Under the pieces are notes generated by a model. That model was not told the origin of the DNA, did not search any database, and was given only the letters and a program-made list of their open reading frames with translations. Of a DNA stretch of 64,000 bases, positions 1 through 48,217 are shown one piece after another (the first letter of the stretch is position 1; each line of letters opens with the position of its first letter). The stretch is from positions 2,639,236 to 2,703,235 of the forward strand of contig SCHM01000003.1 in the NCBI GenBank assembly GCA_004123355.1. The letters are read 5' to 3'. The translations under genes and the position numbers were made by a program. The stretch is from Amphirosellinia nigrospora. Lineage: Eukaryota; Ascomycota; Sordariomycetes; Xylariales; Xylariaceae.

Positions 1-2897
1 GCTTGTTTAAAAGTGATTGGAATGTGGCCGTATTGGATATATGCTGCATCATGCCAACGCGAACCTCATCCTCGTACATAGATGGGACATGCAAGATACA
101 GCTTAACCTAGCTACAGCTGCAATGCTTAGCTTCAAATGCTCGTCGTCAACAATGTCAAAAGCGCTACCTTCATTGAGGGCAGCTGACAATGCGGCGATA
201 AGTAGATCATCAAGAAATTTTAGCATTTTCATAAAGAGTGGCAGTCGTGTTTCGTTGGAAGCACCAATGTATGGATCGCGTTCGAAATCATTGACAATCA
301 TCTCAATACTTTTCAAACAACAAGAAAACTGCTTAGTCTTGTAGCCGATTGCGTCATACGCATCACCAAGACGCGTCCAAAGAAATAAGCGTAGTTCGGT
401 GCTCGTGCCCTGTAGAAATTTCCAAAGATCACGAAGACCTTGACTCGCGGTCTCAGCAATCGGCCGCTTTTCTTCAGTCGATGGTGATTCCGCAAGCTCA
501 CGGCTGACAGCTTCACCTTCAGGCTGGGCTGGCTGATTGTCAACAGTAAAGACTGATGATGGGTTGAGTACAGGCTCCAAGCTTTCAATTACCGAAACAG
601 GATCTTTCAGGTCGGTCTGAAACAACCCGAGGAAGAAATCCATAGTGGTAAGCTTGGATATCTCCCTGTCTGCTGCGAGTGCAGACACTTCAGGCATGAT
701 CGCATTGTTAGGGAGTAGAATGTCAACGGTCGTTTGTTCCTCGCCAAGCCGATCACGGAGACTTTTCCAGCATTGCAAAACATGCTCTCGCTCTGCACCC
801 TCTGTAAGAGTTACGGCGAACACAGAAGACCATAGAAATCGCATTGACAACGAGATATCATCGGTCTCAGCCCGCTCCCTACTCAATTGCGCGGCTAGAG
901 AAAACCAGCGTGCTAATCTAGCTTTTGTTTCAACGCGTGTAGCGAAGTCTACAGCGCTATTTGGGTTGGTAATACGTTCATAGATGTCTAAATGTAGCTC
1001 GAACTGCATTTGAACTAGTCGGTCAACAGCGTCCCGTGCATGTTCGGGGTACTCAGCTTGGGTACCACATAGAAGCTCATGTTTCGTCCGATGATAGATA
1101 TCCTCATGGAGATGACTTATTATCTGCACTACTGCTCTTTTCATTTCATCAGACCATGTGCTTGTAAGATAGTTCTCACAAAGATGCTGGATCCATTGGA
1201 AAATGACTTCGGGAACATCCATCCAGCCATCGTTGATTTTCTGTACGAAATCAGCAAGACCCCTAGTTTCGTGAAATAGAGGTTTGGAGGTATGATGCTG
1301 GGAACCTGGTTTGGAGTATTCGAGAAAGGACGACAATCCTATTGGCGAGGCGGTTTTCTTGGTCAACAAGATCTTTGCATGCTCGTCGACAAATTTCATT
1401 AATGAGTCGCGCAAATCGACCATAGGACGACGGGTCAGTTTCGAAGTCCGTGTATCCGAAGCACAAGAATCTATCACTTCACCTAGGCGCTCGAGAGTGG
1501 CTTTGTCTTCTATGCCTAGGTTCTCAGCTATGTTGCGGGTCATCTGGAAAAGGTTCTTATCCGCAGCCTGAAGTGGTTGTAGTTGGGCAGCTAGAAGGGT
1601 ATTCGAATCTAACACTTCCCCAGCGGTCTCACGACGGCGAGTGCGTTTACTCCTTTTCTGATCTACTGCTTCCTCCTCCCCACCATCGGGAAGACCAGCA
1701 ACGGACTGAGACCGTTTACGTGACATGGTGAAGCTACCTCGGTCCAGTAAGCGGTCGTCCATGGCACTTTCGTTCTCAATGCGGGTCTCTCTAGGAGTTT
1801 CAGCATGGTCATCTTTTGATGTAGAGGGCGAGTCGGTAGTTTGCACTTGTTCTGTTGGGCCCTGATCATCATCCCTTGCGCTTTTGGGCGTTCTACGAGA
1901 GTCTGCACGTCATCGCCGACCTCTGGTATCTCAGGTATATCAATCATGACTTTGCCTGCACCCACACCATCAGACCTTGCGTAAGCAAGAACTGCCAACC
2001 CAGATCGACCCAGGATGGGCTTGAAACATGGATATGGCACTGCCGCGAGGTGGCTTTGCTGATTGCCGGCTTGAGAGGTACAAGTAATTTAGTAGGATCT
2101 GGAAGAAAGGGGAGCGGGTCTATATATCTCTTGAGGGCTTCGGGCATCAACTTCTTGGTGAAAGGAGCCATGGCAGGATGGCTCAGGGAAATCTGGTCAG
2201 ACAACACTTGCAGCTGCTGTTTCAACTGCTCACCCGCGAAGCCCTCGGCAAGGGAGGGTGGTTCGACCTCGTCAACAGCCGGGTCATCGTCTAGTTCAAT
2301 AGCGGCCTCGAGACAATAGCGGCTGATCCTCGTACCATTGAGGAAAGCAGCGACGCGAGCAGTCCGCCTCCATAATTCCGCATCGGATGGGTCCTGGTCC
2401 AAGGCAGCACTATATTCATCCAGAGCTCGCGGGGCTTGGGCGAGGGTCTGCTTGTCATCTAGCAATGAGGAGCCGTCTACCCGGCTCACCTTGGCCCGGT
2501 GGCGAATGACATCGAGGGCAAACTGGCCATGGTTCTTGTAGGCTAAATAAAGCGTCTGAGGCAGACTGCTCGCGCCACCGTCGATGTCGGGCTGGGCCAC
2601 GTCGAGAGCATGAGGAAAAGCTGAGTGCGCAGACAGGTCGCGACCGTCTGCGTGCGTCTCTGCGCGGTCAAACTCGGTAGCGCTCTCCGGAAGATGGAAA
2701 ATTTCGGACTGGAAAAGATGGTCGTAGGCAGCGGCGGCGTCTTGGTAATGCTCGGGCCCTTGGGCATGCAGTTTAAGGGCAGTCTGAAAGCGCTTGAGGG
2801 CTTCGTCTATTTGGAGTTCGCGGGAGGTGTCGACCTCCTCGTCGGATTCTCTTCGGGCTCGAGATTGATGGCCGCGAAGGCAGGCTGTATTTGCCAT
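1..2897 (-). CDS. HIR3: Histone transcription regulator 3 homologue (HIR complex), 3'-truncated by window edge, frameshifted
   Basis: Hir3 (CABIN1 in animals) is the large TPR scaffold of the HIR histone chaperone, which deposits H3-H4 independently of replication and represses histone genes in the nucleus. The N-terminus shows the family signature: an acidic SDEEVD segment, an IDEALKRFQTALKLHAQGPEHYQDAAAAYDHLF TPR-like helix pair, then LFQSEIF and more helical repeats, with DAELWRRTARVAAFLNG near residue 170. A later part carries a basic KRSKRTRRRE nuclear-localisation-like stretch (about 1610-1680) and long helical segments towards position 1. The frame changes several times: near the start (about 2860-2890), near 1960, and again near 1700. 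Each change is explained by one missing base, so I treat it as one gene read through base-calling errors. The start at 2897 is the best ATG. It is divergent from the Bud7 gene. Family assignment is fairly sure; exact exons are not. Confidence 0.8.
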
Positions 2898-3789
2898 TAG
2901 CTATCGTCTAACCGTGAATCTCGTCGACAATCATCGAATGGGTCGTCTTGCCATAGTGTAGTCTCGAACCGTGCGTCACAGCTTCGCTGATCTTCAATCC
3001 GTGAGAAGGCGAGGCAGAATGCGCCGTCGCATAATGACATTACCTCTACGCTATGAGAATGCTATAACGTTGCTCGACGGACGGATGTTTGGCTTATCAT
3101 GTACAATTTGGGATTTGCGGGTTTGCCTGGTAGATATTGTACAGTAGGTACAGTACAGATGATACCTATTGTCTAAGTACCTAGTGGGTTAGCAAGGATG
3201 AACTGTCCGCGCGACGAAGTGCTTGATTTACAGTACGATGCAGCGCGCATCCAAATCGGCTTAGATCTAACCACTTAGTAGTACATAGGTACCCGGTAGC
3301 TATGCCGTTAGCAGAGGTGCTGGTTAGGAAGTGTACCTACAAGAGAACCCTCCCAGCTGTGGTGGGAACCTGGTGGCGAGATGGTCCGTGCGGGTTTGAG
3401 TTGGCAGCTCTTACCCTGGGCAGAAACCCCTTGGCGCTGCAGGTGCAGGTACCTCCTGCGTACTTACTCAACGATTCATTGCAGTACAGTGAGCTGCTAC
3501 TATACAGTCCATTGGACGGGCCTTGTATCAGCAGCTCAAGGCGTCGTTGTGCCTCACATCATTTTACGAACCACCACCAGCCTAGTGCTCTTTATTTCAA
3601 CGTCCTTGAGAACATACAACCCCGGCCCTGACACCATCTCCAACATCTCCAACCATACAGTACATACTAGTCCCGAGAGCCGCAGTCTAGCAAGATACGC
3701 CGCGTGTTTAGCCGAGCTAGGAGCTAGCAAGGAGAGCTGCCTGCACTCCTTGTCCTCCAAACCGCCGCAACCACCACACCACAACCACA
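2898..3789. other. Divergent intergenic region HIR3 / BUD7
   Basis: This is a shared upstream region of about 0.9 kb for two genes transcribed away from each other. It contains several GTAC and GGTACCTA-type palindromes (for example around 3130-3190 and 3285-3300) and C-rich tracts just before the Bud7 start. Open frames here (3302-3850) show no family resemblance and overlap the probable 5' leader. I see no other gene. Confidence 0.6.
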
Positions 3790-6138
3790 ATGCCGGCGCC
3801 AGCAGTTCCAGAGTAAGTTGGGCCTCTCGATGTGTGCTAAGGCCCCGCTAAGGACCTACACAGGATCTCCGAAGAGGTCATACACGAGTCAATTGATGCC
3901 CGTACCGAGATACTCGTGACTCTGCGCGAGCTTGGTCCCCAGACCTCGTCCACCTGCTCAAGCAAAACCTGAGAAACACAGGCAAGCAGGTACGGCCCCG
4001 TCGTCGCTCTGCGCCCGCGGTTCTTCTCGGCGCATCCATCTCTAACATGAGCTTTACTCTAGACAGGTGTTTACCATCATGTCACCGGCGTTGATGCCTC
4101 CTCCTCGGCCAGTCTCGCTGCCTACATCAACACACTGACCTACAAGGAGCACGGCCAAGCGCCCACCCACAAGATTGTCGAAGGCGTCTACTGCTGCTAT
4201 AATGCCTTCTCCCGCCTTGATATGCGTGTCCATGTTACCATTCCCGGAACTGTTGAGGCGTTCTGCGTCGACGAGAGGGCGAGAAGCGCAAGGCTACCGA
4301 CGAACTTTGGCTTGAGACATACCTATGCAGTGTGTTGCGCGCCTACTCATATGCAGATGACGGGAGCGGAGACACTATACGCAAAATTATGGGTGTGCGA
4401 CGCTTCAATCCTGTTACCAACACTGAGACCGAGCACCGCTTCCTAAGCGCTGCCGAAACGCTTTCTTCCGAGGTTCGTAGCGGCGCATTCGTTGAAACCC
4501 CAAGAAGTCAAGTCAAATGCTAATACATAGTGTTACAGGATGGCAGTTAGGCTCTGATTCCGTCGTGCAAGTGCCCAACAACGTGTCCAATCACCTAACG
4601 GCTGGGCTGTTAAAGTACTTCCACACAACCGGTCGCTTCACCTCTGCTATCAATCTTTTGAGAAGCTCCGAACGCAGAATGTCGAAGTATCCTCACTGCT
4701 CGCCAAGATTCTCTTTATGGGAAACGAGGAGGTACAAGGTATACGAGTGCTTCACCAGGCACTAAAGGAAGCGCCTATGGATTATGTCATGTTGGATTCC
4801 CAAGCCGAATTTCTCATAAAAAAGGCGATAACAGCCGAGACGCCGGCGCAGAAAGAAGAGAGACTGAAAATGGCCCTAGGCTGCGCTGATCGTAGTACTG
4901 TCGCCGCTCCAAGTGAATTTGGGACATGGGCTCGACTAGCCCAAGTGTACGTTGCTCTAGAAGATTGGGAGAACGCCCTGACGATACTTAACTCTTGCCC
5001 AATGTTCAGTACCAGGACAAAGACGCACCCATAATGCCGGAGCCAAAGGAGGTATATCTTCCGACGCTACCCGAAACTCGGCTCGATGAGATCGACAGCG
5101 AACCGGACTCCAGATTTGGGAACAGGTAGACCCAAATTTAGTGAACCTTCGAGCAGCAACCTACCGAGGTACCTTTAAGTTGCATATAATTTCTCACCGA
5201 GATGACAGCGAAGATTGGTTGGGACCAGTTATTGAAGATACGCAGCTCGGTTTTCGTGATGGAGGATGAGTACCGGACTGACAGACAGGACGATGCCTCA
5301 CAGGCTCCACTACAAAGCGCAATCCTAGTACGGATGGCTCCGTGGTTCGCCAGAGCCCTCTACAAATGGGGATCATGAAACCGAGGATGAGGAAAGTAAG
5401 AAGGAAACTGAGGACGATTCCACCACAAACGCCCTGGCCAATGGCAACGGCGATGAAACGGTGGAGAAGCCAACACACACCATCGACCCTGGCGAAGTCA
5501 AAGCCGATGGTGATACCGTAAGACACCTTTTATCCCCTCTCTCCACGATCAATTAGTTATTAATGACACTACAGACGGCGACAACTGACGAGCATCTTTC
5601 TCGGTTAAATAACAAGCGTCTGTGTGAGAGATGGCTGGACAGCCTTTTCATGGTGCTTTACGAGGACCTCCGCGTCTACACTATCTGGAGAACACAGATG
5701 GCTCAGTACCGGGCGCAGTCCATGCAGTACAAGAAGTCACCTGAAGAGTGGGAGATCCTGGGTGCCTTGGCAGAACGCTTGCAGCATCATGATGAGGCAG
5801 CCGAAGCATACAGAGCGTGCCTTGCCGCGCGATTCAGCCCAAAAGCACTATCGGCATCCTTCGCGTCTTCCAGAAGCAGAAGAATACGAGGGACACAGTA
5901 GCAGCCGTCATTCGGTTGGTGACTTGGCAATACCGATGGTACTCAGAATTCTCTCCCGGACTACTTCATACCATACGAGTCCTTATTGAGGGGAAGTGCG
6001 GTTAAAGTACGATCGATTATTCAAGCGACGAGTTTGCCTCAAAACGTGCTTGATCTGACCCATCACTATGCTGCGTTATGCGCGACCTTCCGAAGTAGGG
6101 GACCGACGGCTAGAGATATCCTGACAACAACTGTATAA
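3790..6138 (+). CDS. BUD7: Bud7/Chs5-Arf1-binding protein (exomer cargo adaptor), frameshifted
   Basis: Yeast Bud7, Bch1, Bch2 and Chs6 (ChAPs) bind Chs5 and Arf1 to form exomer, a trans-Golgi coat that exports chitin synthase and other cargo to the cell surface. Recognisable blocks occur in order: ISEEVIHESIDARTEILVTLRELG, THKIVEGVYCCYNAFSRLDMRVHV, LRAYSYADDGSG, VPNNVSNHLTAGLLKYF, TPAQKEERLKMALGCADRST, GTWARLAQVYVALEDW, and a C-terminus with VIRLVTWQYRWYSEFSPGLLHTIR and SLPQNVLDLTHHYAALCATFRS. The first exon is 3790-3812 with donor gtaagt, and exon 2 begins at 3864. The reading frame breaks at CCCC 3937-3940, TTT 4070-4072, GGG 4277-4279, TTTT 4656-4659 and several later points; each is repaired by one added base. 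The end at 6138 is the first stop in the restored family frame. Either a gene with sequencing errors (preferred) or a pseudogene. Confidence 0.8.
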
Positions 6139-6866
6139 ACACTTCAAAATAGTGTTTAGTAATCCGGACTGGGCAGTAGCAGGTGATTGGCCTGGGACCA
6201 TCGATATGAATGGTGCGCTTATACATAACTCAGTAATTACACAGAAAAACGATGAGACTATTAGATACCCGTGAAGCATGAGCACTTTGGTCCCCACTGT
6301 GGGATAGTCCGTGTATTCCAGCTATTCCCATACATCGCACTTTCAACTGTTTTAGTAAGCCTGTTAAAGTAAGGTGTGCGAAGCTACTACAACAAATTAA
6401 CTTTATAAATAAGTGGGTTTCAGATCATGATACCACTTTAGTTTTCCAAAAAGAGGACGCAACATATCGAACAACTAAAGTGAGAGGTTACTACGGGCAA
6501 TTTGGTTACTTAGGGAGTAAAGTGTGAAAGCTGGCTGAGTTCCCAAACTATTCACAAGCAGGATCTTAGGCCTTTTTCATGGTACGAATAACCTATCTAA
6601 GAGCTAGCGACATAACTACCAAGAAGTTAACACTCGGAATTGTAGGTGTTATAATTATATACATACGTTCGTGATGGCTATAATAGGGTAGCTGCTTTGA
6701 CCCGATTGGCCAAAACTCTCCTATAGCTTTCTTTATATGATGTCATAATTCCCATTCAACGCAAACTCAATTATCACAGCAACACCAACGGCTACATATC
6801 GTTTAGCATCAATCTATATTTCTCTAATTTATACGTCGTAGCAGTAGAGGATCCATAGCTTGCGCG
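6139..6866. other. AT-rich intergenic region
   Basis: About 730 bases separate the Bud7 stop from the carrier start codon. The stretch is AT-rich with stops in all frames. I see no RNA gene, repeat or recognisable site. Confidence 0.5.
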
Positions 6867-26224: not shown

Positions 26225-27894
26225 TTCTGTGTTGAACACTGTCAGTTCCAAGTCATATAGTGTGAGACATGAACTTCTTTTCTAGTCCGATTGAAACTTA
26301 CTGTAGTGGTAGAGCAGACGCTGCGATGAACAAAGGGTCTGAGATCTGAGGAGGGGTACGTAAGTTATTGCCGGATGCTCGGGACGAAGGCTGTTGAGTT
26401 CACAAAAGCCCGCAACTGCAACTTACACGAAGGAGATCTAGAGACGGGATGGGAATGAGAGAGTGAGAGAGAGTGAGGGACAGGAGGGAAAGAAAGGAGG
26501 ATTGAGGGAGTAATATAGAAAGGGCTTAGTAGAAGAACCGAAGTAGTAAGCATTGAGGGGCGGAACAAGACAATAAAGGTCGGCGTCGAAGGATTGCCTA
26601 CGTCGGAGAAAATTTGGGACTGGATCTGCCCCTCCATTGCCGCCGACAGCACAAAGGCCCCTCCAGCCCCTCGTTGGGCCCTGAATCTCACTGGCTGCTG
26701 GCCGCTAGACCTGCAAGTCCTCTGGACCCTCTTATTGCCCGCCGGATTCCTACGGCGACTGGTTCAGCGATTGGACCGTTGCGCCCGCTAGCTCTCTGCT
26801 CGGCTTAGCGGCTTAGTGTCTCGACCCCTCGCCCCAGGCTTTCGGCAAATAAACTGACACCTTTCTTCGCTGCTCCGTAAACAAATACCCAACATTATTT
26901 CCGACACAACCGTGCAAGCCTGCCATCATTTTCGGCGAATTGCTTGCCTACGTTACAGTCCTCCGAAATTGACAAGACTTGCCTGCTCTACCCAGTCACA
27001 GTCACACTAAGAGCAACAACCGTGGGCTACTATGATTGTTGGAATGGGTGACGGTCATTTCTAGGTTTTGCGACCACCGCCGAACGTACATAATATCTGA
27101 ACGGAGGTCTGCGGAGGGCTCCATAGAAAGTGGGGAGAGATGCTAGTTGACAAATTAAGAAGTGATCAGCCAGCAGATTGGAGGTTACTACTATACGTGT
27201 AGTCCCTGATACTGCTAGTTGTGCTCATTACTAGTATTAGATAATTGCCCAATCAAATAAAATGATAATAATGCTGTACTAGAAGTCTTATCCAACACAT
27301 GTAACAATATGGCAAGGTTATGCCCGTATAGACACACAGACCCTTAGCTCGGCGATGGTCCGGTCACTGGCCGCGTAAGCCGGCCCGGTGAACTCCACGA
27401 TATCCCACAAGTTGGTTGCCAACTATCGTGTATAGCACGTTAAGTAGCCAATAGGCCGTCTGATGTGGGCTATTTCCAACCAACTAGCAATCTGCTTAAA
27501 TCACGTCTCAGAGACTGATGCCTACTTGTTCATTCATGCTGACATCTCACCCAGCAACATGGATAGTCAATTACCTATATCAAGGCTGAGACCTTCGAAT
27601 ATGGAGGGCCTTTCTCCTTCTCGCTATTGAGCGTTCGCTCCATATTTTCCTCGGCTTCTTCGTCATGATAGCAGCATATCGGTAAGCTTTTACTTCCCGT
27701 CCCATAAAAGTACAGGCACATGTCTACTCATGATGGCACCTAGCTCCGTAGGATGGCAACACCAGATAACACCGTCAAGATGTTGTGCCGAGTAAATGCT
27801 TGTTGTTTATAGAACCCAATGAGAGCGCCCAATCGCGAACGCCGTGCCAGATGCATGCCTACCGAAACATCATCCCACCTTTCCAATCATGTCT
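26225..27894. other. Intergenic region upstream of SAH hydrolase
   Basis: About 1.7 kb. The first 600 bases are the promoter and leader of the hydrolase, with a polypurine GA-repeat tract at 26455-26500. The remainder shows no gene. Open frames at 27785-28035 are antisense to the 3' end of eIF3h and are not supported. Confidence 0.5.
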
Positions 27895-29136
27895 TCATTC
27901 CGGCAGCAGGTTCCCCCTGACTGCGAACATCTTGGCGCTAACACACGCCGTAAACCCATCTACTGCTTGCTGTATTGCTCAACTTGCTTCGCATTCAACA
28001 TGCCCTCGAGGCGGCTGGTTCTTGTGGTAGTTTGAAAATGCGTTGCCACTCATCTTCGGGTAACGGCTGTTGCTTAGCGGCAACACGTGCCGCGTTCTCC
28101 GCCTTACGCTTTGTTTGCCATGCTGTTATTGTTAGTCTGTTCTCGTGCCAATTGTCTCTGGTAGTACTGGTAGTTGTTGAGTTCGGTGTAGTGTGACTCT
28201 ATGCTGTCGAGTAGTAGATCACACGTCTTCTCTAGGAATGGATCTATCGAGAGGTCGAGAGTATCGGCTGAAGGATGAAGAGGCATTTGGATAGGATTTT
28301 TTGGAGATCGGCTAGTGATGTAGGCATGGCCAAATCACCAGTTATCGGCTTCGCAGGAATTTGGTGCAGGAACGAGGTGAGAAGGTGGGAATTATGCATG
28401 GTGACTGGGAATTCGGCGAAGATGTCCTTGAAGGATAGTTTCGATTTTTTGCAGGCTATTGTAGTTAGCATTACATCTTCTCGGGAGTTAGCGGTCAAGT
28501 CGAACCTCTCTGTCGTGAACTTGCCCTCCTTGTATGCGGTCATGAAGGTGGGGTTAGTCTAAAGGCGCGCAAGCTCAGAGCACCCTGCGAGCTCCGGCTG
28601 ACATCATGAACAAGGGCTACTGTCTTGTCGTTTTCCCGCTGTAGTGATATTGATTCTCGATGAAGCCGAGGTTGACAAAGTTGCCCATGGTAGCGCTCGT
28701 ATACCAGCCGACATTGTTAGCATCGACATTTACCTCCTTAAGGTGCCTAATCATCTCGTTTTGGTAGGTAATGTTGGCTTTTGCCCGAGGCGCGGCAGCG
28801 GCGAGTGAAGATGCGTCGTTCTGGTGGCTGCCTTCGACATTGGCAACATCGGCGGTGGGGAAAGGGAAGGAATTTGTGATTTCCACGACTCCATCCTGGT
28901 CCATGCCAACGATGGATCCGGTGGCAGTAGTTGGGAAGCTAGCAGAGCAGTGCTTGACAATCTTCATGACAACCTATAGATACGCAAGCATATGTCAGTA
29001 TGCGACTGTAGCAATCAGAGGTTCGCGATCGAGATGACGGAGGGGTGCAAGGAGGCAAGGAGGGGTATGAATGGTTTGACTAACCAGGGCTTCCACTGGA
29101 CCGTCTTCAACGGCGCATCTTGAGGGAGTCGGCCAT
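27895..29136 (-). CDS. eIF3h: Translation initiation factor eIF3 subunit h, frameshifted in this sequence
   Basis: A cytosolic MPN-domain (non-catalytic) subunit of eIF3, which recruits mRNA to the 40S ribosome. Motifs in order: MADSLK start, VQVEAL split by an intron (29094-28974, gttagt...atag), [124 protein letters not shown], then [22 protein letters not shown] and a C-terminal coiled coil with [12 protein letters not shown] and [11 protein letters not shown]. At least seven frame breaks fall at short homopolymers (for example GGGG 28550-28553, TTTTTT 28297-28302, TTTT 28631-28634 on the plus strand), each repaired by one added base. Because eIF3h is normally single-copy, base-calling errors are preferred over pseudogene. 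Stop at 27895-27897 follows NLLPE, the usual fungal ending. Confidence 0.9.
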
Positions 29137-30486: not shown

Positions 30487-31206
30487 TCACGCCCAGTCGG
30501 TAATCTCCCAGCTTTCCACTTCGTCCCGAATGATAAGCCTGTGCCGGTCAATCTTCCAATGGGAATAGAGGTCCCGGGCTGCCGTGGCTGCCCGTCGATG
30601 CGCGGGTCCGATGCCTCCTTTCCTTGCGTCTTCTTGCGATCTCCACACGCATGTTGCCAGATTTTTGCCATCCTTATCAGGGCTTCCAAACCAGTATCTA
30701 AGCCTTGTCAGTGCATGATGTGCATCAGCGGCGCAGAACCACCTACTTGAGGAACCCGCCACTGGCTGTTGCTTCTGCGTGTGCCGCCTTGTCCAAAGCC
30801 CCCAGGTCCTCATACACCGTTGTCGGTGGGATCTGGGAACGGAACGCGACCACAAAAAACGAGCTTCCTTTCCAGCTGTGTTCTTTTTGCTGCGTTAGCC
30901 GTTTTACCTGGTCCATTACCTCTCTCCAGTTGAAGGTATCGATATATGGGGCAGTGGCATAATCGGGCCGGAGACACTTCAAGTGAACTAGCGCCTGCGC
31001 AAGGATTGCATTCTCCATGTCGAGACTCTTCAGATTCAATAGGTGTTCCCTTTCGGTATAAGGTGACATGACCATCAGATTTTCGGCCTCATCTAGGAAA
31101 GTCTCAGGGTCGCGAGGCCTTTCGTTGAAACTATGACTGTTGTTTTGCTGGCGGTAGTGGCGGGCATAGATTCTGCGCTATGCAGATATTCATGCTGGAC
31201 AGCCAT
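30487..31206 (-). CDS. UPF0643 family protein, frame break near N-terminus
   Basis: A conserved fungal protein of unknown function. The body is unmistakable for the family: TFLDEAENLMVMSPYTEREHLLNLKSLDMENAILAQALVHLKCLRPDYATAPYIDTFNW, SSFFVVAFRSQIPPTTVYEDLGALDKAAHAEATASGGFLK, then after an intron (30746-30698, gtaggt...ttag) YWFGSPDKDGKNLATCVWRSQEDARKGGIGPAHRRAA and DRHRLIIRDEVESWEITDW to the stop at 30489-30487. The last part looks acyltransferase-like (IWRSxEDA, heavily conserved), but no activity should be assumed. The N-terminus MAVQHEY...STKGLAT joins the body in frame only if one base is added at GGG 31107-31109. Start could instead be the internal MPATT at about 31167. Confidence 0.85.
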
Positions 31207-36577: not shown

Positions 36578-37433
36578 CTACTCATCATCGAGTATCCGAC
36601 TTGCTATACTGCCAAAACAGGAACTTCAAATCTAACAGGGCAAGTCAGATACCAAGTCTCGATTTATAATAGCACGTCGGGTGGATTATTCACTTACCTG
36701 TCGAGGGTATCTGCATCCCGGTACGCATGAAGCGCGAGGAACCCGATCAGAGCCAGATCTCCAAAATGATGACCCAGCTGAGGAACGTCGACCAGGAGAA
36801 CAAGAGATGGATGACGACATGACAGTGAAGACGAGACTAGACTGCCACGCATGAAACCTGGTGTCATTATATTAGTTTCCGAACATAGGCACTTAAATGT
36901 CGAATACCCCTCCGAGGCCCCCATTCTCCCATTCCAACCTTCCCTCACCTCCTCGTTGGAATGTACAATCTTAGAAGCAAGATCGCTGCTCCACAAAGCT
37001 CGTAATCTAGGAGAGTATACTTTCGAACCAGACTCACCTAACATAGTCGCTCTTCCGCTCGAGAATCAGCAGTATATGCGGCGCCAAGCGGCGGTATCCC
37101 GATATACGCCAACACAGCCTCGTAGTCAAGCCGTAGACCCAAACTGGTGTCGAACTCGCTGACGAACCCTCCGCCTCCCCCGCCCAACCCTATCCCGCCC
37201 CCACTTCCGCTCTCCGCCTAGGCCGTCCTCGACGCATATCCCGCGTGCCACGAGCGCTGCGGCTGCGGGTGGTGTAGTGGCGGGGGAGAAGTGGCGGCGA
37301 AGTTCCGCTGGGTCGGGCTGAAGGACTGCCGACGATCGAGCGACGCGCGCGGCGACAAAGCGCCCTCGGCCCCGGGCGGAGAAAACGGTCGGCTGTGCTC
37401 GGGCGGCGAGCTCTGGTACGGCGCGAAATCCAT
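36578..37433 (-). CDS. DUF4870/UPF0132-type small membrane protein, frameshifted in this sequence
   Basis: A fungal multi-pass membrane protein of unknown function. Exon 1 (37433-37038) encodes a proline-rich cytosolic-type start MDFAPYQSSPPEHSRPFSPP followed by FDTSLGLRLDYEAVLAYIGIPPLGA and ILERKSDYVR. Exon 2 (36857-36698) encodes RFHAWQSSLVFTVM and HLLFSWSTFLSW, then LALIGFLALHAYRDADTLDR. Exon 3 (36631-36578) encodes FEVPVFGSIASRILDDE and the stop. Introns are 37037-36858 (gtgagt...ccag) and 36697-36632 (gtaagt...ttag). Three hydrophobic helices are expected. The frame needs correction at about 37085, at two T runs inside exon 2 (near 36817 and 36764) and at AAAA 36613-36616 (plus strand). 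Motif order and splice sites are convincing. Function not known. Confidence 0.8.
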
Positions 37434-38379: not shown

Positions 38380-39404
38380 CTAGGCGCTCGTTCCGTTCTC
38401 GGCCCGCCCTCCTTTTTGCCCCCGTTGGATTCTTCTTCGAGTTGTGTCCGCCTACTCTCAAGAGTAAGCCATAAGCCCTTGGAGTGACCCTCCAAAGCTG
38501 TCGTAAGACCAAGACCAGCACTATGTAACAGATAAACGAGCTGTGCCGCAGTCCGTCGAGGCCGCCCTCGATGCCGCCAACCCATTTGACTCCGTCCAGG
38601 TCGAATGCCTTGTCCTCTATTCTGCCTCCGACGAGGATGAGTTTGTGGAATCCACTCTGGGCAATGGGGTCATAGTACCCGGGTTCTTCTTCCGTGTGGG
38701 AGCGGGGAACGCAGGCGGTGATGGCGAAAGGACCTTAAGTACGGCTGCCAGGTGCGCCGGCGAGACAGAGGGGAAGGCCACGGTGGCAACGGGCCCTATG
38801 AGTAAGGGGCTAATCTGGCCATAGGTAGACGACTCGTCAACCGTCACATTCCTAATCGACTCGTAGGCTGTCTTCGACAAATCGTGTGTGTACGCATTCG
38901 ACCTTCCAACTTGGTCCTCGGGTTTGAAGTAGTCGATAATTTTACAGGCGACGCTGAACATGCGCGTGCGCACCACCTGCAACTCGATACTTGATGCGAT
39001 ATCGACGGGGACAGTGCCATCAGGCCCGGCTGCGGGCGACGGAACCTCTGCCAGGCGGCACGCAACTCTCGCCGCACGGCGGCCCATTCCACGGCTGTTA
39101 AATTTTGTGTTGGAAGAAGAGAATCAAAGGCGACGACCGCAGCATTGCCGTGTATGCGCGCAGTAGCTGGGCCTTCCTCTCGTCGGGCCGCCGAGCGCTT
39201 GGAGGTTGGGGTTGGAGGGATATAATCGTCGGGCAGCCTCAGAGCGCCAGCGGGCACTGGGGAGCTTGCTGTTGCATAGTGCCTCGAGGCAGCCCTTGTT
39301 GCGCTCTGAACTGTGAGGGATGGAACTCTCGCCGTGTTTGTCGTCGCTCGTTGCAGAGCTCGCCCTACACTACTGCGCGCAGTGCAATTGAGCCGCAGCG
39401 GCAT
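38380..39404 (-). CDS. MRPL11: Mitochondrial large-subunit ribosomal protein uL10m (YmL11), frameshifted in this sequence
   Basis: The mitochondrial counterpart of bacterial L10, which anchors the stalk that recruits translation factors. The N-terminus [27 protein letters not shown] is Arg-rich and lacks acids, as in an import presequence, and leads to RHYAT. Family blocks follow once frames are joined: [89 protein letters not shown] then [59 protein letters not shown]. Frame breaks occur at an A run near 39103, near 39060, at CCC 38678-38680 and near 38555 and 38410. The stop near 38380 assumes a last missing base; uncorrected the frame stays open to 38232. Likely essential for mitochondrial translation, hence probably a functional gene with base-calling errors. 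Confidence 0.8.
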
Positions 39405-40046
39405 TGTGGGGAATCCGACGAATCGCACCTGAAATCTGCCTTTTCAAGCCTCCTCCCCTGTGTCGTCGTTGTCGCTAGGTTCGAGAGCGTGATAGTCGAT
39501 GGTCTTTGCTCTCGCTAGAGATTAGATAGATTGCCTTAACGCCGGCTACTACAAAAAGCTGAGATGAAAATAAGTGGATCCGTGCTTGCTTCTCCAAGCC
39601 CCGGACCAGTTCCGGCCAGGCGGTCGGAGGCCGGAGGCTTCTTTCTGTCTCTACTTCCTCGAAAACTGCCATGTTTCACCGCTCCAATTGATAACCAAAT
39701 GATAAGACCCTTTTAGTACAGTTCCCCAAATACCCCCTGCCCCTGCTCCCATGCCCCTCCATCGACTTAAGTACTGGAATGACAATGATGGCGGGGCAAC
39801 AAGACCACCAGCAACAGCAATACCTTAGGCAGGGTTGTTATCACCACCTGAGTCATCTGCAGGTACGGATGAGTCTGACATTCCGAAGACTAGGGGCCAA
39901 TTGTGTTGTTTTGGAGAGGTATAGTTATGAATTTTCTTGACTTAATCTCACCTCCCCCTCAACATAGCTAATCCTGTCGCCATCTGGGAATAGCTCAGCA
40001 GAAACTCGCTAAGGTCATCCTCGCCGAACTCGGCATCTTCGACAAG
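39405..40046. other. Divergent intergenic region uL10m / TRP4
   Basis: A shared upstream region of about 640 bases. It includes the amino-acid control element listed at 39849-39855 and a C/A-rich stretch at 39735-39765. No additional gene is supported. Confidence 0.5.
39849..39855 (+). promoter_or_regulatory. TGAGTCA element (Gcn4/CPC-1 type site) upstream of TRP4
   Basis: A perfect TGAGTCA lies about 190 bases before the TRP4 start codon. In ascomycetes this is the binding site of the bZIP activator Gcn4/CPC-1 of general amino-acid control, which is known to regulate tryptophan genes. The match and its position are seen; binding is inferred. Confidence 0.6.
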
Positions 40047-41374
40047 ATGGCTACTACGACCGGATCGCAACCCAATTCGATTGCGATGCAAGACCAGAAG
40101 GTTTTGGTCGACATACGTCCTTTGCTCCAGCGTCTATGGCCGGACCCCGAAAAGGAGAACGTAACGGCCAAAGAGATCGCCGAGGCCATCTCGCTGATCT
40201 TTGTCAACCAGCTGAGCCCAGTTCAAACCGGCTCGCTCCTGACGGCTCTGCATTTTACGGGCTGGGACCGTCGTGCTGATGTCTTAGCTGAAGCCTCGGC
40301 CGCTATGCGCCGTCATGCGGCCGACATTGACTTCCAGGGTTTGGAGAATACCATAGCAAGCAAACGGCGGCCAGAAGGGAAATATTTGGGTGGATTGGTG
40401 GGCTCCCCCCGGAAGTGTTTCGCTAGGATCTGTCGTACAAATACAGAAGCGTATACTAATTTATTTCGTAGTGCGACATTGTTGGCACAGGAGGTGATTC
40501 TCACCATACTTTCAACATTTCTACAACATCCTCCATCCTCGCCTCATCTCTACTTCTCCTTGCCAAGCATGGCAACCGCGCGTCGACCTCCAAGTCTGGC
40601 TCTGCCGACTTGCTCATGAACATGCAACCAAAACCCGCTCAGCTCGCCCGCATCGCGCCTGACACCATTTCTACCGTCTATCAGTCAACCAACTATGCGT
40701 TTCTATTTGCCCCTGTCTTCCACCCGGGTATGAGGCATGTAGCGCCTATCCGCAAAGAGATAGGATGGCGCACTATCTTCAACCTCTTAGGCCCTTTGAG
40801 TAACCCCCTTAACGACGCCATCGAGGCACGTATGTTAGGTGTTGCGCGCGACGATCTAGGCTCCGTCTTTGCTGAGGCTTTGCGTCTAGCCGGCGCAAAG
40901 AAAGGCTTAGTAGTTTGTGGTCAAGAACAACTCGACGAAATTTCGTGCGCCGGACCTACCCTCTGCTGGCAGCTAGTCGAGGGTGACACCGGCGTAGAGG
41001 TCGAGCATTTCTTGATCGAGCCGAAGGACTTCGGGCTTAGTGTACATCCGCTCAGCACCGTTTCACCTGGCAAAGAGCCTCATGAAAACGCAGAAATTCT
41101 ACGTAAGATCTTGCAGAACGAACTACGAGATGACGATCCAATCCTTGAGTTCGTGCTCATGAACACCGCGGCTCTATTCGTTGTCTCAGGTATCTGCGAC
41201 GCTGACACGAGTGCCATGGGCCCTGGCGATGATGGCAAAGTCATCACGGAGAGAGGGCCCGGAAACGGGCGCTGGAAGGAGGGAGTGAGGAGAGCTAGGT
41301 GGACGATAAAAAGCGGCGAAGCATGGAAACAATGGAGTGCTTTCACCGAAGTTACAAATACGCTGCCCATATAA
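40047..41374 (+). CDS. TRP4: Anthranilate phosphoribosyltransferase
   Basis: Transfers phosphoribose from PRPP to anthranilate, the second step from chorismate in tryptophan synthesis. Two exons, 40047-40397 and 40472-41374, separated by an intron with donor gtgggc and acceptor cgtag; together 417 codons plus stop, in frame and intact. Exon 1 has the helical N-terminal domain (VTAKEIAEAISLIFVNQLSPVQTGSLLTALHFTG). Exon 2 opens with the PRPP-binding CDIVGTGGDSHHTFNISTTSS, then AKHGNRASTSKSGSADLL, FAPVFHPGMRHVAPIRKEIGWRTIFNLLGPLSNP, and ends in a C-terminal VLMNTAALFVVSG segment. The intron falls exactly before the GTGGD loop. Unlike in bacteria it is unfused. A CPC-1-type site lies upstream. 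Start chosen as the first ATG of the frame. Confidence 0.96.
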
Positions 41375-41903
41375 TTTTAATGAAATTGCAATCTAGGAAA
41401 ACGGAAAATAGAGCTGAGAGCTACTGGCAGTTTTGATGAATGGCCCTTTTGCATGCGAAATAAGAAGAGTAGCTTTCTATATAAGCTAGATATTAATACG
41501 CTACCTCTACTATACATCTATCAGCTTAGCGTATGGAAAATTATTCCTGAAAGATAAAGAGTATCTTGGGGGATATGACAGGGACAGTTATAAGAATATT
41601 TTAAAGAAAGGGTCAGTGTAAAACCAAAGAGACACATATATTTTTCTCCTTCCAATCAACTATCAAATGCCCTTCTCGACCTCGTGGCCTAATTACATTC
41701 TAGGGCTCGTCAAAACGCTTTCCCGCCATTCCAAAAATAAACGAAAAGGTCACAGAGGAAACAGATGTGATCTGTCGGAGCCAGTACGGGATTTGCTAGA
41801 GTAATGGCTCAGCACAAGGGCACAAGTCGTAATCCCGCTAAGAGGACCCGAAAACAAAATCAAGATTGCGAGAGAGTAAGCAAGCAAAAAGAGAATCGAC
41901 ATT
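41375..41903. other. 3' flank of TRP4
   Basis: About 530 AT-rich bases between the TRP4 stop and the tRNA-Asp gene, including 3' untranslated sequence and the Pol III terminator listed separately. No other gene seen. Confidence 0.5.
41886..41890 (-). terminator. Pol III T5 terminator of tRNA-Asp
   Basis: A run of five T on the tRNA strand 14 bases past the tRNA 3' end, the usual RNA polymerase III stop signal. Confidence 0.7.
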
Positions 41904-42034
41904 CTCTCGATCGGGGAATCGAACCCGGCCACCTGCGGCTTGTTCCACGGTGAGACAAATGAACTCACTAACGTGAGCCGAACTGTATCGCATAGAATGA
42001 CAAGCAGGTATCCTGACCACTAGACCAATCGAGA
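41904..42034 (-). tRNA. tRNA-Asp(GUC) with a 60-nt intron
   Basis: Cloverleaf read on the minus strand: acceptor TCTCGAT pairs with ATCGAGA plus discriminator G, which is typical of fungal tRNA-Asp. The D arm is GTCT...AGTGGTCAG...GATA, the anticodon stem CCTGC/GCAGG, and the loop TTGTCA plus C carries anticodon GTC. The intron is 41997-41938, in the canonical position one base after the anticodon. The T arm reads CGGG-TTCGATT-CCCCG, so one G appears to be missing from the 5' strand of the T stem; this is another short-homopolymer deficit. Splicing would need the tRNA endonuclease and TRL1, encoded next door. Confidence 0.88.
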
Positions 42035-42820
42035 TTTTGTTGTGTGGTCAAGCGAGTGTTGTAATGAGGGCTATCCCGGTCGTGATTTAGTTTGGTGGAG
42101 TTGCGATATTACTAATTTTAGCTCCTCACTGCTGGGTCAAACACACAAGTTAGGTAGGTAGGTGACCGAAGCTCTAAGGAGGATAAAGTAAATGGACATC
42201 GCACGCTTCTAATCAGGCTTCTCTTATTCTTATTCTTTTTAAAAGAATATATAACGCACGTCCTCGTTTTAGCAGGTTGGAATGGGGTTGGAGAGCAAGA
42301 ATGAAAACTCAGGAGTAGAAGATACTGCCAAGGCTAGGAAACATCCTACATGGATCCCTTTGTGATCCTGTCTCGACTAAGCTAAGTCGACGCTTAATTC
42401 TTGAAGTTGAGGGGGTAGAGACGAGGTTTCCATGCTCGCTACACTACCAACAACTACTGCATCTATGTTGAGACTTGCGAGTCGCTTATATTGTAGTTTT
42501 GCATCACGGTGGAAAGCATCCTAGGTCTTGTGTGACGTTATACCCCAACATTATCTTGTCTAGAGGCGTAGTGCATGTTTCCAAGGCCAGTAGTGATTGA
42601 TGTACGGCTCGAATACTTTGGTATAGCCATCTACACAATCTTTATCCTAGTGTACATAAGATTTGGGCAAGTCTGGCATGTGCTTCTAGCTGATCTCTAT
42701 CGGCACGCAAGCCACAGACAAAAGGATCCTAGTAGGACTCCCAAAATAAACAATTTCTACTTAATGACCGCCTCTTCCCCTGTTCCGCCAATGAACTTCT
42801 CGCCATGGTTGATCCCCGTC
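42035..42820. other. Intergenic region between tRNA-Asp and TRL1
   Basis: About 790 bases with a TAGGTAGGTAGGT run near 42153 and no coding potential beyond short frames. It contains the 5' flank of the tRNA gene and the 3' flank of TRL1. Confidence 0.5.
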
Positions 42821-45298
42821 CTATCGCGACAACACACCACGAACTGTTCCTTTTAACGTCGGCTTTTCTTTAAATACCTGCTCACCGATTCCGGTATCAC
42901 CTCCGCTTCCAGCATCCAGCCATCGAGCCAGTAAGTCATTGCTTTCCTTGGGCTTGACCGAATCATCGCGTGTACCCACCGTTATGTGTGCCACCTTGTT
43001 GGTACAAGTCCACTTGTCTTCTTGATCTAATAGCCGCACCACGATGGCCATTATGCGGTCATCGAACACGACACGCTCGAGCATGACTTCGCACTCCCCA
43101 ACCTTGTTATCCACGGACTGGCTTTCGGCTTCGAGGGTAGTGTAGCGCTGCCATAGTTCAGGGTATTGTTTAGCGTTGCTTCTGTGCATGAGTGTAACGT
43201 GAAAAAGAGGCTGGATGCGCCGCGTCTGCTGCAGCTGCTTGTAAAATCGCTGCATTTGTGGATCAAGTCCCTTGAAGGCCGATTCAAGTGTGACGTTGAC
43301 CTCTTTAGCGGGAACTGAGATAGACATGTATTCGAGCGGCTTCTTCTTTTTGGATTCATGTGCCTGTTGGGCCTCCTGACGCTTCTGGTCTCTTTTACTC
43401 GTGCGATCAGGTATCTGATGTCTTATGCTCGGTGTGTAGTCCTCAATGGCGTGCTTTACAGCCGCGTCCATATCTTCCGCACTTGGCATGTCCGGAATCA
43501 GCAACGGATACTTCTTGCGAAGCTCGGTAACCACTTTTTCAACGTTTACACGGCTTCCCTGAGCAGGGTCGAGGTCGATAACGAAGTCAAAGCCATCATC
43601 AGGCTTTTTTTCCGGGTCGCAAGGCTGGAATCTATGTATGAAATTCTCCATGATGCCAATGACCTTATTCTCATCCGAGGCCGCCTGGATGGTTTGATGA
43701 TTATCACCACGTTTCAACACTCGCTCTCTTGTAACCCTTCTAACCTCATCCATGTTGCCGTGGGCAAAATTCAAAGCTACGAGCCGGGCATCTTTGTGCT
43801 GCATGAGGACATCTTTGATGATTTGCTCTCGCTCTCGACGTTCAGAGTTATTCCGGTCAGCAATAACGACAGGATGCTCCACCAGGGAAGACATAACAGC
43901 CTCAAGCATTCTTGCAGGACGCCCCTTACCCTGAATATTGTCATTCTGAATGATGTCCCAACCAAATAGCCGGGTTAATGCTACACCGACAGTGGTTTTA
44001 CCACATCCAATAGTAGCGATTGGTACGAGAACAACATCGCTTGATACATGTGAGGTGTCATTTCCAAACTCATTCTCAAAGTTTGCAGCATCGGAGCCTT
44101 TGAGGTTCTTGTGTGCTAGAAAGTCGTCCCGAAGAGAGATGATACCGTGGTTTTGGTTGTAAAGCTTGGATAGCTTTGGGTCCTTGGCCAATCTTTTACG
44201 AGCATACAATAAGTACTCCTCGGTGATCTTGGTATGTTTTCTGAATTTGGGGGGCTTCCCGGCAATAAGGGCTTTGGTGCATTCCCGCCATTGTCGGTAC
44301 ATCAAGTATGGCTCTTCAAACTTGTATTTGAAGAACCAGTCAACGTATTTCGTTTGTTCCGCATCGGATGCTAATCCGCAGCGGATGACAAAGCCCTCCA
44401 CATCTCGACCTTCGTGGGCACCTGATTCGGCAACCTCCTCCAGGAAACTCTTGACGGTGTCGATATCATCAAAAACTTGGAGCCCAACCTTTCGAAAGCC
44501 CCACTCATCTGCGAATTGCTGTACAAGACCGCTCGGATATGTCATGAATTCAGGGATGTTGACGTTGATGCCATGAAGATACAACCCAGCCTTATCCGGG
44601 CCGTAAGCTAGAATATGCTCCTCGAACTCGTCGTCACACAGTTCAGCAACTGCTGTGACGTTTCTACGCCGCAACTCCTGGGCAAACTCTTCTCTGGTCT
44701 TGCCAATGGTGGCCAACTGTTTGTCTACCCATCTCTCGCCGGCACTGGCATGGCTGACCTCGACATCACTGCGGTCCCCGGTCGAATGCTTGCTACAAAC
44801 GAGCAAAGTTCCATCTTCCAAGCCGCTAATAAAGATGATGCAGCCGTTCTCTTTCAATGTGAGCTCGTATGGACCTCGCGACTTGCGTTTGACGTTCTCC
44901 CACTTCGTGTCGGAAACCTCGCCGACATTGAAAAACTTATCATAACCTCTCACGGCGATCTCATAGTCGTTATGTCGATTCCTGGTGGTGAAAAGGCCAC
45001 GCGCATAGGTTGGTAGGTCAGGCTTCTTGTAATCCCAGTCTTGAAAGCGCCACGAGTCGACACTGACGCCGTCTGGTGACCCGTGGATCTTAAAGGTGGT
45101 TCTCTTGGCCTTGAAACCCCTCTTGGCCTTGTTGGCCCCGTCGTTCAGGGCGCGAACGAGTTGGGAGTTCTGCTGGGGATCTTGCTCACAGTAAGGAGCC
45201 TTGGAAAGATCCATGCTGGGCTGGTGACCAGAAAAACCAATGGTTCGAGGTAGTGATAACCTGGATTGCGAGGACAGGCAAGCGTGATGAACGGCCAA
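42821..45298 (-). CDS. TRL1: Fungal-type tRNA ligase (tRNA splicing, also HAC1-type mRNA splicing)
   Basis: An intronless, intact 825-codon frame with the three activities of Trl1, which heals and seals tRNA halves after intron excision and, in yeast, also joins HAC1 mRNA in the unfolded protein response. The ligase domain has the nucleotidyl-accepting lysine in KENG (K149-G152) and VEGFVIR near 300-306 with WFFKYKF at 321-327. The polynucleotide kinase domain has P-loop GCGKTT (431-436) and DRNNSERRERE (481-491). The C-terminal cyclic phosphodiesterase domain has its two H-x-T motifs, HVT (700-702) and HIT (771-773). All catalytic motifs are present. A second Met at residue 29 (45214) gives the usual N-terminus MDLSKAPYCEQDPQQ; the extra 28 residues are basic and acid-free and could be a leader or may not be translated. 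Confidence 0.96.
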   Translation of the reverse strand: MAVHHACLSSQSRLSLPRTIGFSGHQPSMDLSKAPYCEQDPQQNSQLVRALNDGANKAKRGFKAKRTTFKIHGSPDGVSVDSWRFQDWDYKKPDLPTYARGLFTTRNRHNDYEIAVRGYDKFFNVGEVSDTKWENVKRKSRGPYELTLKENGCIIFISGLEDGTLLVCSKHSTGDRSDVEVSHASAGERWVDKQLATIGKTREEFAQELRRRNVTAVAELCDDEFEEHILAYGPDKAGLYLHGINVNIPEFMTYPSGLVQQFADEWGFRKVGLQVFDDIDTVKSFLEEVAESGAHEGRDVEGFVIRCGLASDAEQTKYVDWFFKYKFEEPYLMYRQWRECTKALIAGKPPKFRKHTKITEEYLLYARKRLAKDPKLSKLYNQNHGIISLRDDFLAHKNLKGSDAANFENEFGNDTSHVSSDVVLVPIATIGCGKTTVGVALTRLFGWDIIQNDNIQGKGRPARMLEAVMSSLVEHPVVIADRNNSERREREQIIKDVLMQHKDARLVALNFAHGNMDEVRRVTRERVLKRGDNHQTIQAASDENKVIGIMENFIHRFQPCDPEKKPDDGFDFVIDLDPAQGSRVNVEKVVTELRKKYPLLIPDMPSAEDMDAAVKHAIEDYTPSIRHQIPDRTSKRDQKRQEAQQAHESKKKKPLEYMSISVPAKEVNVTLESAFKGLDPQMQRFYKQLQQTRRIQPLFHVTLMHRSNAKQYPELWQRYTTLEAESQSVDNKVGECEVMLERVVFDDRIMAIVVRLLDQEDKWTCTNKVAHITVGTRDDSVKPKESNDLLARWLDAGSGGDTGIGEQVFKEKPTLKGTVRGVLSR

Positions 45299-46151
45299 TG
45301 CCCTAATAGTGAGTCTACCAGTACGGGATGTGGCAGATGCAGAACCGAGAAGTGAGCTGTGGGTGTAGTAGCAAGTTAGCTGGCTAGGTCTCCTTGTTAC
45401 TTATTCGTTTTTGTATGTGTAAGGTTGGGGAAACGATGGGATAGATGAGGTGGACTATAAAGGGGTTTGTTGATCTGAAGCGCATTGATAGTGTGTAAGA
45501 CACGCATGTAACATGAACGGCGAGAGTTGGGGTAGAAATAGAAAATGATTTACAACCTCTTGCACAGGGGGGTAATAATTGCCCGCATGAGTCACTCGGT
45601 CTGATCATCAGGCAGTGGCTATCTGTTGTTCTGGGTAGCAGTTACTAAGGCTACTAGGCTGGAATGTTGAGGTAGGCAGTGCCTTGAAGGTCAGGATAGG
45701 ACAATCTAGAATTATTTTGCCTTCGAACTATCACCACGAACTGTGTTCAGCTAAGGTATAGAACCTAGTCGAAGTGACATTGGGTTTCTCATTCAAGGTT
45801 GCTACCTACCAGGTACAGCGCTATCCCTTAGCTACACATATCGCTATAATTCCCCCGCTAACCCCACCAAAAATGACTATGAGTACCTACTTTACCTACC
45901 TAGGTAGCACAAGTTATGCTGGCGGGGTACCTGACCTTGACCATGCGTCACACCGCGGGCCCCTCCAGTCAAAAAAGGTCCAGCAGCTACTTAGTATCAT
46001 ATCCGTCTTTTTTATTTGGGCTAAAGAAATCTAACATATACACTCGCCAGCCTCATCACATTAGGAAGGGTCACGATTCTACAGGCAACAGCTCAATTTT
46101 TTTGCTACGGAAATTTACTTGTTAGCATCGGGATTCTTTAGAGTCATCACA
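45299..46151. other. Divergent intergenic region TRL1 / ankyrin gene
   Basis: An 850-base shared promoter region for two outward-facing genes. It contains the palindrome ACCTACCTAGGTAG near 45895-45908. No additional gene recognised. Confidence 0.5.
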
Positions 46152-46808
46152 ATGCCTCCCAATCCGTTCCTCCTTGCGGCTGATAATAGCCCAGCTCTTC
46201 TGCCCCTCCTTCGCGAAAATCCAGCCCTAGCCAGCCAGCAGGATGAGCACGGCTACTCTCTAATCCACGCCGCCGCCAGCTATAACCACTTAGACCTTCT
46301 ACGTGCCCTTATCCAAGAGTTCAAAGTCGATGTCAACCTGCGCGATGAAGACGAGGAGACCGCCTTATTTGTTGTCGAGACGGTTGATGCTGCCAAAGTT
46401 CTCGTTGAAGAACTTGGCGCCGAGGTCATGATTAAAGGATCCGACGGTTACACTGCTCGCCAAAAGATTAGTGAGGAGGACGATTTCCCAGACGTTGCCG
46501 AGTATCTCAAACTTAAGGAAGCAGAACAGGCCCGGGATCTTTTGAATGGGGCCAATGGCGAACCTGTACAAGACAGTAGTGACATGCCACCCTTACCTGA
46601 AGGACTCAACTTTTCTGTTAGCGCCGTCAACCCAGCCGAAAACGATGAGAGCGAAGTCGACCCAGAGTTTAGGAGAAGGATAGAGGAGTTGGCCCAACGT
46701 GAAGATTTTCATAGCGAGGAAGGCCAGGCAGCGCTCAGAGGGCTTGTCCAAGATGCAATTTCCGATGGGAACCTCGCTGATCGCAACGTCCGACCCCGTC
46801 AAGACTGA
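46152..46808 (+). CDS. Small ankyrin-repeat protein
   Basis: An intact, intronless 218-residue protein. Residues 1-100 form two or three ankyrin repeats: NSPALLPLLRENPALASQQDEHGYSLIHAAASYNHLDLLRALIQEF, DVNLRDEDEETALFVVETVDAAKVLVEELG and GSDGYTARQKI. The C-terminal half is acidic with PEGLNFSVSAVNPAE and an EFRRRIEELAQREDF helix. The layout matches the short cytosolic ankyrin family that includes budding-yeast YCR051W; molecular role unknown. The ATG at 46152 (context CACAATG) is preferred over an upstream in-frame codon because the protein then starts MPPNPFLLAADN as in relatives. The 3' end is only 48 bases from the convergent RPP40 stop. Confidence 0.9.
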   Translation: MPPNPFLLAADNSPALLPLLRENPALASQQDEHGYSLIHAAASYNHLDLLRALIQEFKVDVNLRDEDEETALFVVETVDAAKVLVEELGAEVMIKGSDGYTARQKISEEDDFPDVAEYLKLKEAEQARDLLNGANGEPVQDSSDMPPLPEGLNFSVSAVNPAENDESEVDPEFRRRIEELAQREDFHSEEGQAALRGLVQDAISDGNLADRNVRPRQD

Positions 46809-46856
46809 GCATGGCTAGAGACTTATTTTCAGTTATGATCACCAAGAATTAAGTGC

Positions 46857-48217
46857 TCATTCGTGCCCCTTGATCTCCCAGAGAACATATTCTCCTGGGC
46901 TGCTTGGTGGCCTCATGATGGTACAATCTGCACCATACCCAATAGCAACTCGACTGAATGGTGTGGCGCTCAATGAAAACCATGCTTTAGGCGGCAGCGT
47001 TTTGATCAACTCCACTAAGGTGTTTGTGGCCCAGCTCGGCGGTATAAATCCTTGCCAGCTAATCTTGCATAGCCGATCTTCCTTATTCTCTGAGGGGTCG
47101 CTAGGAACCGCATAGGTGGATAGGTAAGGGTCGATTTTATCTAGAAGGTTGACTCGGGGGCTCTCTAGTCGAACAAGAGAGATCCATTCGTATATATCGG
47201 TAGCATAATCGTTCAGTTCCTGTCTGGTTTGGTCGGCAAGGACCGCCGAAGGAATACCCAGCGGAGGAATCTTCATCGCCAAACCTTGGGCAAGTACTGG
47301 ATGTGATGTATACCTGGTTGGGTAGTATCGGATCATAGGGTCTGGACTAGGCGCTGATACTAGTATTAGCGACAGCTTTATCAATCGAAGGTGAACGGTG
47401 AGCCAGTACTCTCAGAGAGATTGCAAAAGAGCCAGGTAGTCGGTGCGTTTAGCGCATTCGTGCAGGCATATATTAGCCTATCAAACCCTTTCTTGCCATG
47501 TAAGGCCGATGGGCTGCGAAGGTCGTACTCGACAACTTCAAAATAGTTAGCTTTATCATATCCGAATTCTGCTCACATGCGACTTACCCCATCTAGCTTG
47601 TAATCCCCTTGCCCCCTTAGCGCCATGAGGTTTACCTACGAGGCCGGCCCGTTCATATGTCTCTTTATCAAGGGACATGAGAAGTTTCCCTATGAGACCA
47701 GCTGCTATTAACAAATGTAGCAGCTTGTCGACAAGGAGAATTGGCCATACCATCTTTGATTGAAAACACATTATCGGTCCCAACCTTTCCCTCGGAGAGC
47801 ATCATAATATTCCCTCGAGAGTCAATGTCAGTACAAACCACCTTAGAATATGCAGGCATCATATACCAATCTTGATATACTGCGTGAAGAAGTCACGCTC
47901 AAGAACTTGTCCAAGCGTCATTATAACTCGGTGATGGCTTGGGGTTAGTTCTGTGTCGTCAAGTATTTTTTCCTTGATGAGATGCAATAGTGTCTCAGGT
48001 AAAATCAAGTCGATCTAAAAGACCTTGTTAGCCTATCATCTAATCAGATCATCTGCGAAGTCAAAGCTCTTACTTTGTGCAGGTAATCCTGTGAGAGTAA
48101 CGTGTTCCATGGCTTGGTTTTAGTTGGGAGCTGGTTGGCATCGGGATAGCTCATTGCTCCATACGTGACGAAGCATTTTGGCGTCTGATAGACGCTAGGC
48201 TTTGAAAATGAAAACAT
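46857..48217 (-). CDS. RPP40: RNase P protein subunit Rpp40, frameshifted in this sequence
   Basis: A protein of the nuclear RNase P/MRP family, needed for 5' maturation of tRNA. Exon 1 starts MFSFSKPSVYQTPKCFVTYGAM (48217) and ends QDYLHK; intron donor gtaaga, acceptor tttag. Exon 2 reads IDLILPETLLHLIKEKILDD and TLGQVLERDFFTQYIKI; intron gtatat...cgag. Exon 3 reads GNIMMLSEGKVGTDNVFSIKDG, ILLVDKLLHLLIAAGLIGKLLMSLDKETYERAGLVGKPHGAKGARGLQARW; intron gtaagt. Exon 4 reads VVEYDLRSPS, KKGFDRLIYACTNAL, TTWLFCNLSE, then PSAVLADQTRQELNDYATDIYEWISLVRLESPRV, KISWQGFIPPSW, PKAWFSLSATPFSRVAIG and GEYVLWEIKGHE with the stop. One-base breaks occur near 47755 and 47370. The gene shares a 478-base divergent promoter with TRM11. 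Confidence 0.85.

Follow-up and report, generated by a model that had tools for sequence, protein, structure and literature searches.

Short homopolymer deficits in conserved genes of an Amphirosellinia nigrospora assembly and their probable origin in the consensus sequence

Several conserved genes in a stretch of Amphirosellinia nigrospora DNA, among them those encoding BUD7/ChAPs, eIF3h and mitochondrial uL10 (uL10m), fall out of frame at short runs of a single base, which raises the question of whether these genes are dead or whether their sequence is wrong. The stretch analysed, hereafter the window, comprises 64,000 nucleotides (C5:2639236-2703235) of an assembly that totals 48.1 Mb over 11 contigs. 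The original prediction attributed the broken frames of about nine genes to base-calling error, named ten homopolymer runs as the sites of loss, and placed the worst damage in the first 40 kb. All ten runs are present, although one of them, AAAA 36613-36616, was off by one, position 36613 being C. The results of the current study indicate that the deficits are very probably homopolymer-length errors in the assembled consensus, that they occur throughout the genome, and that some of the individual sites named earlier are not confirmed.

Frame changes were assessed by searching reading-frame pieces separately and checking whether neighbouring pieces were colinear within a family, changed frame, and left room for an intron. 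By limits of our own, a join with a gap of less than 40 was taken to have no room for one if it also had fewer than 45 extra bases. Every row of the ChAPs, RPP40, Cpn60/TCP1, HSP70 and synthetase searches entered the join table, and one of the three eIF3h_C rows was left out. Scoring in the genome searches was limited to the best candidates, which makes the copy numbers lower bounds.

One-base deficits in protein and RNA genes of the window

The clearest case is the BUD7/ChAPs gene (PF09295; 4063..5276, plus strand), which is recovered as five colinear pieces. At three of its four joins (4275-4287, 4609-4666 and 4995-5025) the ends overlap and exactly one base is missing. The predicted runs GGG 4277 and TTTT 4656 lie inside the first two of these intervals, and the third deficit was absent from the earlier list. 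The second join, at ~4512-4534, holds 68 extra bases and is probably an intron. A further deficit proposed at CCCC 3937 was not confirmed, as no homology was found upstream. The DNA at 4260-5100 has no genomic match besides itself.

The uL10m gene (38432..39365, minus strand) has as its closest solved relative the chain 6ywe_f, which we take to be from Neurospora; this relative and that of HIR3 (8gix_D) make a filamentous ascomycete a likely source of the DNA. Aligned with 6ywe_f, the join at 38674-38689 lacks exactly one base, and it contains the predicted run CCC 38678-38680. Comparison by eye with the same reference suggests a further change in the one-short sense at 39103-39106, and another is likely at 38989-39029, where 17 extra bases do not suffice for an intron.

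In the eIF3h gene (27957..28973, minus strand) the three predicted sites fared differently. The run TTTT 28631-28634 sits in a join (28630-28637) that supplies eight bases between chain residues 141 and 145 where nine are needed. At GGGG 28550-28553 the reading frames make a one-base deficit likely, whereas TTTTTT 28297 is ambiguous between a deficit and an intron, an alternative intron of ~70 bases also preserving the frame. A separate intron of ~50 bases is probable between ~28505 and ~28455. The middle piece of the gene is weak (E 0.03-0.05), yet all eight of its eight matches are to eIF3h.

The same kind of loss is seen in structural RNA genes. The window contains a tRNA-Asp(GTC) gene (41904..42034, minus strand) with a 60-base intron, which was missed by Rfam and by ARAGORN in bacterial mode and was recovered by ARAGORN with introns allowed. 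A DNA search of the genome found six tRNA-Asp copies, with exons identical save for one run in the T stem, which is GGGG in four of them and GGG in the remaining pair, the window copy (GGG 41924-41926) belonging to the latter. The predicted one-base loss is thus borne out by four of the five other copies. Three ARAGORN drawings show a broken T-stem pair in the window copy and none in L084 and L085.

Among 33 matches to 5S rRNA, nine copies are identical apart from run lengths, and these nine carry six one-base losses in five copies relative to the majority, with no substitution. Among the tRNA-Asp copies and among these nine 5S copies, the differences are confined to G4 and C5 runs. The 5S C run preceding A could be read in 25 copies, of which 14 have five bases and 11 have four; of 23 copies read for the G run, 20 have four bases and 3 have three. 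The longer form is presumably the canonical length. Relative to the majority, 30 of the 33 copies have no insertion, the three with insertions being L080, L082 and L083.

The matches L059-L083 comprise several distinct 5S rRNA sequence classes, dispersed over contigs, and two of the matches, L082 and L083, appear to have diverged. Another tRNA gene with an intron, at 59177-59278 on the minus strand of the window (Rfam, 55 bits), appears undamaged. ARAGORN assigns it as His(atg), an unusual anticodon, and its loop is also compatible with Met(CAT).

Extent and direction of the deficits across the assembly

The deficits are genome-wide and not peculiar to this window, which corrects the original prediction. 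Searches for Cpn60/TCP1 (CCT), HSP70 and tRNA-synthetase (PF00133) genes gave 28 match groups covering ~35 kb of matched DNA. Frame changes with no room for an intron were found at 16 joins in 12 of the 28 groups, on contigs C1, C4, C5, C6, C7 and C8; none was found in the seven synthetase groups. The window rate, eight deficits in 13.3 kb across nine tested genes, is similar to this genome figure of 16 in 35 kb.

The direction of change is predominantly, although not uniformly, that of loss. Of the 16 joins, 13 are one-short in sense and 3 have the opposite sense. The three ChAPs joins bring the number to 19, out of 46 joins between neighbouring pieces in the whole join table, that shift frame with too little space for an intron, and 12 of the 19 are, by length, exactly one base short. 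Sixteen of the 19 share one sign (one-sided sign test, 0.002), a value to be read with the qualification that joins belonging to the same gene are possibly not independent. Of the three joins with the opposite sense, two lack exactly two bases and one carries 4 extra bases. The statement that the direction is nearly always loss is corrected by a few indels that are gains or run the opposite way. When the 16 junctions outside the window were viewed by eye against family sequences, many losses appeared to lie at runs of 2-7.

Whether the first 40 kb of the window is the worst affected was tested, together with clustering, on nine window genes with homology, using hand-estimated DNA lengths. In these tests eIF3h was counted as two deficits and uL10m as three (one strict in each), RPP40 and the HIR3 linker were counted as 0, and the UPF0643, mitochondrial carrier, ankyrin, UPF0020 and VID24 genes were omitted. 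All eight counted deficits fall within the first 40 kb, which holds 54% of the tested DNA (p 0.007). The concentration is suggestive only, since the eight sit in three genes, three of the eight are likely rather than strict, the deficits are clustered, and RPP40, which lies past 40 kb, was scored 0 though it probably has one deficit. By open-frame length alone, the window could not be told apart from its neighbours or from six other stretches of the assembly.

Weighing the possible causes

The reading that the consensus is in error, and that the genes are not dead, draws on several lines of evidence. In single-match and essential genes, on a number of contigs, most frame changes have the same sign, and tRNA and 5S copies that are identical in other respects differ in run length. 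The high contiguity of the assembly, with contigs reaching 13.8 Mb, also counts for it, as does a shortage of G/C runs of >=7, which number 3 against ~13 expected in 218 kb. Runs of one letter (~2-7) would have been under-called by one base during long-read base-calling and consensus building, and correction of the assembly with accurate reads would have been absent or patchy. We infer that a long-read platform was used, that short-read polishing was missing or patchy, and that the genes would be intact in the living fungus.

That the affected loci are true pseudogenes, decayed while functional paralogues persist elsewhere, is most unlikely. The conserved genes are truly out of frame in the given sequence, as this account requires, but their pieces retain strong family scores, and a search of the 48 Mb assembly for intact paralogues found no second match to ChAPs or to eIF3h_C at E<=0.1. 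The same kind of lesion moreover occurs in HSP70 and CCT genes on six contigs, and tRNA-Asp and 5S genes are hit alike. Ordinary introns mistaken for deficits are very unlikely as a general account, although they are likely at the second ChAPs join, in the S-adenosylhomocysteine hydrolase (AdoHcyase) and COPI beta genes and at the HSP70 and CCT joins with >=50 extra bases, and possible at eIF3h 28297. The 19 of 46 joins that are too tight for an intron, 12 of them exactly one base short, speak against extending this explanation to the remainder.

Two further accounts accept the shortened runs as real. A mutator lineage, for example one that has lost mismatch repair, could produce both the bias to loss and the repeated shortening of the same run in different copies; 16 joins in ~35 kb would, however, disable chaperonin and HSP70 genes together, which would presumably be lethal, and we consider such a lineage extremely improbable. 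The chance that real short runs are tolerated through programmed ribosomal frameshifting or RNA editing appears equally slight. The widespread frame changes, mostly of one sign, speak for it, and many genes of Euplotes ciliates likewise require a frame change through programmed frameshifting. Unlike in Euplotes, no fixed slippery motif is apparent by eye, the 16 junctions sharing no visible motif beyond short runs of any letter, and several long window genes need no frame change besides introns. RNA genes are also hit: tRNA-Asp and 5S share the same kind of loss, which is not confined to translated sequence and which ribosomal frameshifting cannot rescue. A variant in which the genome-wide deficits, in coding and structural RNA genes together, are made good by base insertion at the RNA level has a probability close to nil.

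Several observations weigh against error in the consensus as the cause. The evidence comes from the assembled consensus itself. The errors cluster by gene, and the spread among genes exceeds that expected by chance (p 0.003), a pattern that would not follow from uniform miscalling. Some few indels represent gains or run the opposite way, and apparent surplus bases occur in the run at ~28446-28451 of eIF3h and near 39210 in uL10m. A few of the 16 viewed junctions were unreadable, and one join in an HSP70 gene (L047, C7:1399830-1400015) is four bases short and does not lie at a simple run. The two lengths of the 5S C run are nearly balanced (14 versus 11) and may there reflect real copy variation. 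A/T runs of 8-12 are not depleted but in excess (31, against 10-13 from a Markov model); taken together with the shortage of long G/C runs, run-length distributions give mixed support to the error reading. Finally, the residual errors after long-read polishing in Drechmeria coniospora are reported to have been more often over-calls (PMC7500977), whereas losses dominate here.

Remaining features of the window and meaning for annotation

The other genes named in the original prediction are less clearly affected. RPP40 (PF08584; 46932..47690, minus strand) is recovered in three pieces, and all three genome matches lie in the window. Its first join, with 55 extra bases, is compatible with an intron; the second, between 47390 and 47276, has 26 extra bases and probably represents a one-base deficit, and the predicted break is plausible. 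For the gene labelled UPF0643 (30773..31180, minus strand), a frame change near GGG 31107-31109 is visible in the reading frames only, and a deficit there is plausible. The HIR3 homologue (1..2900, minus strand) matches residues 15-294 and 359-954 of its closest solved relative, 8gix_D, in long in-frame pieces, and its open frame runs on into the neighbouring stretch L018. Its sole frame change in the window, between ~1992 and ~1813, falls in a linker for which no homology is seen, and the frame change that follows downstream is compatible with an intron of ~58 bases; the claimed break by a one-base deficit is thus not proven. The Zn2Cys6 and DUF4870 genes, to which the runs at 16552 and 36613 were assigned by assumption, were not identified, no Pfam match at E<0.01 being found around either run.

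Three window genes serve as controls without a deficit. The AdoHcyase gene (24690..26281, minus strand) has one frame change with ~50 extra bases, which fits an intron. The fungal tRNA ligase gene (42821..45400, minus strand) stays open in a single frame over 859 residues; a search of it against a plasmid collection gave no match. The COPI beta gene (55783..58589, plus strand) has two frame changes, with ~79 and 49 extra bases, that fit introns. The Pfam scans took in parts of the window, mostly on one strand per part, and genes elsewhere in the window may therefore have been missed.

The end of the window (60001-64000) has 22.6% GC and lies beside gene-rich DNA of 46-51% GC. Within this AT-rich end, at 62911-63173, a 133-base unit occurs twice in tandem (77% match). 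Further extremely AT-rich DNA is found on the same contig, with 6-11% GC at C5:2539236-2559235 (L009, L010) and in L022, and 21% in L024 (L022 and L024 at C5 ~2733-2763 kb). Known isochores produced by repeat-induced point mutation (RIP) generally have a higher GC content than these AT-rich stretches.

The deficits described here have a clear precedent. As in the nanopore-only assemblies of D. coniospora, a contiguous fungal assembly has conserved genes broken by homopolymer indels, with per-gene error rates that vary widely; there, none of three new assemblies gave full-length predictions for as many as one-sixth of 305 conserved genes, and most inspected errors lay in homopolymers (PMC7500977). 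Frameshifting homopolymer indels are likewise given, in a study on bacterial long-read-only assemblies, as the main residual error and one that hampers annotation (PMC8812927); unlike in those bacterial assemblies, introns complicate the reading of frame changes in A. nigrospora. The multi-copy 5S and tRNA genes provide a quick check for run-length errors that needs no protein homology and is usable on other assemblies. For a considerable fraction of genes, the models, pseudogene counts and intron calls derived from this assembly would be in error, as judged by the 12 of 28 tested groups, and the finding is that of an artefact, important for the annotation of this fungus and not for its biology.

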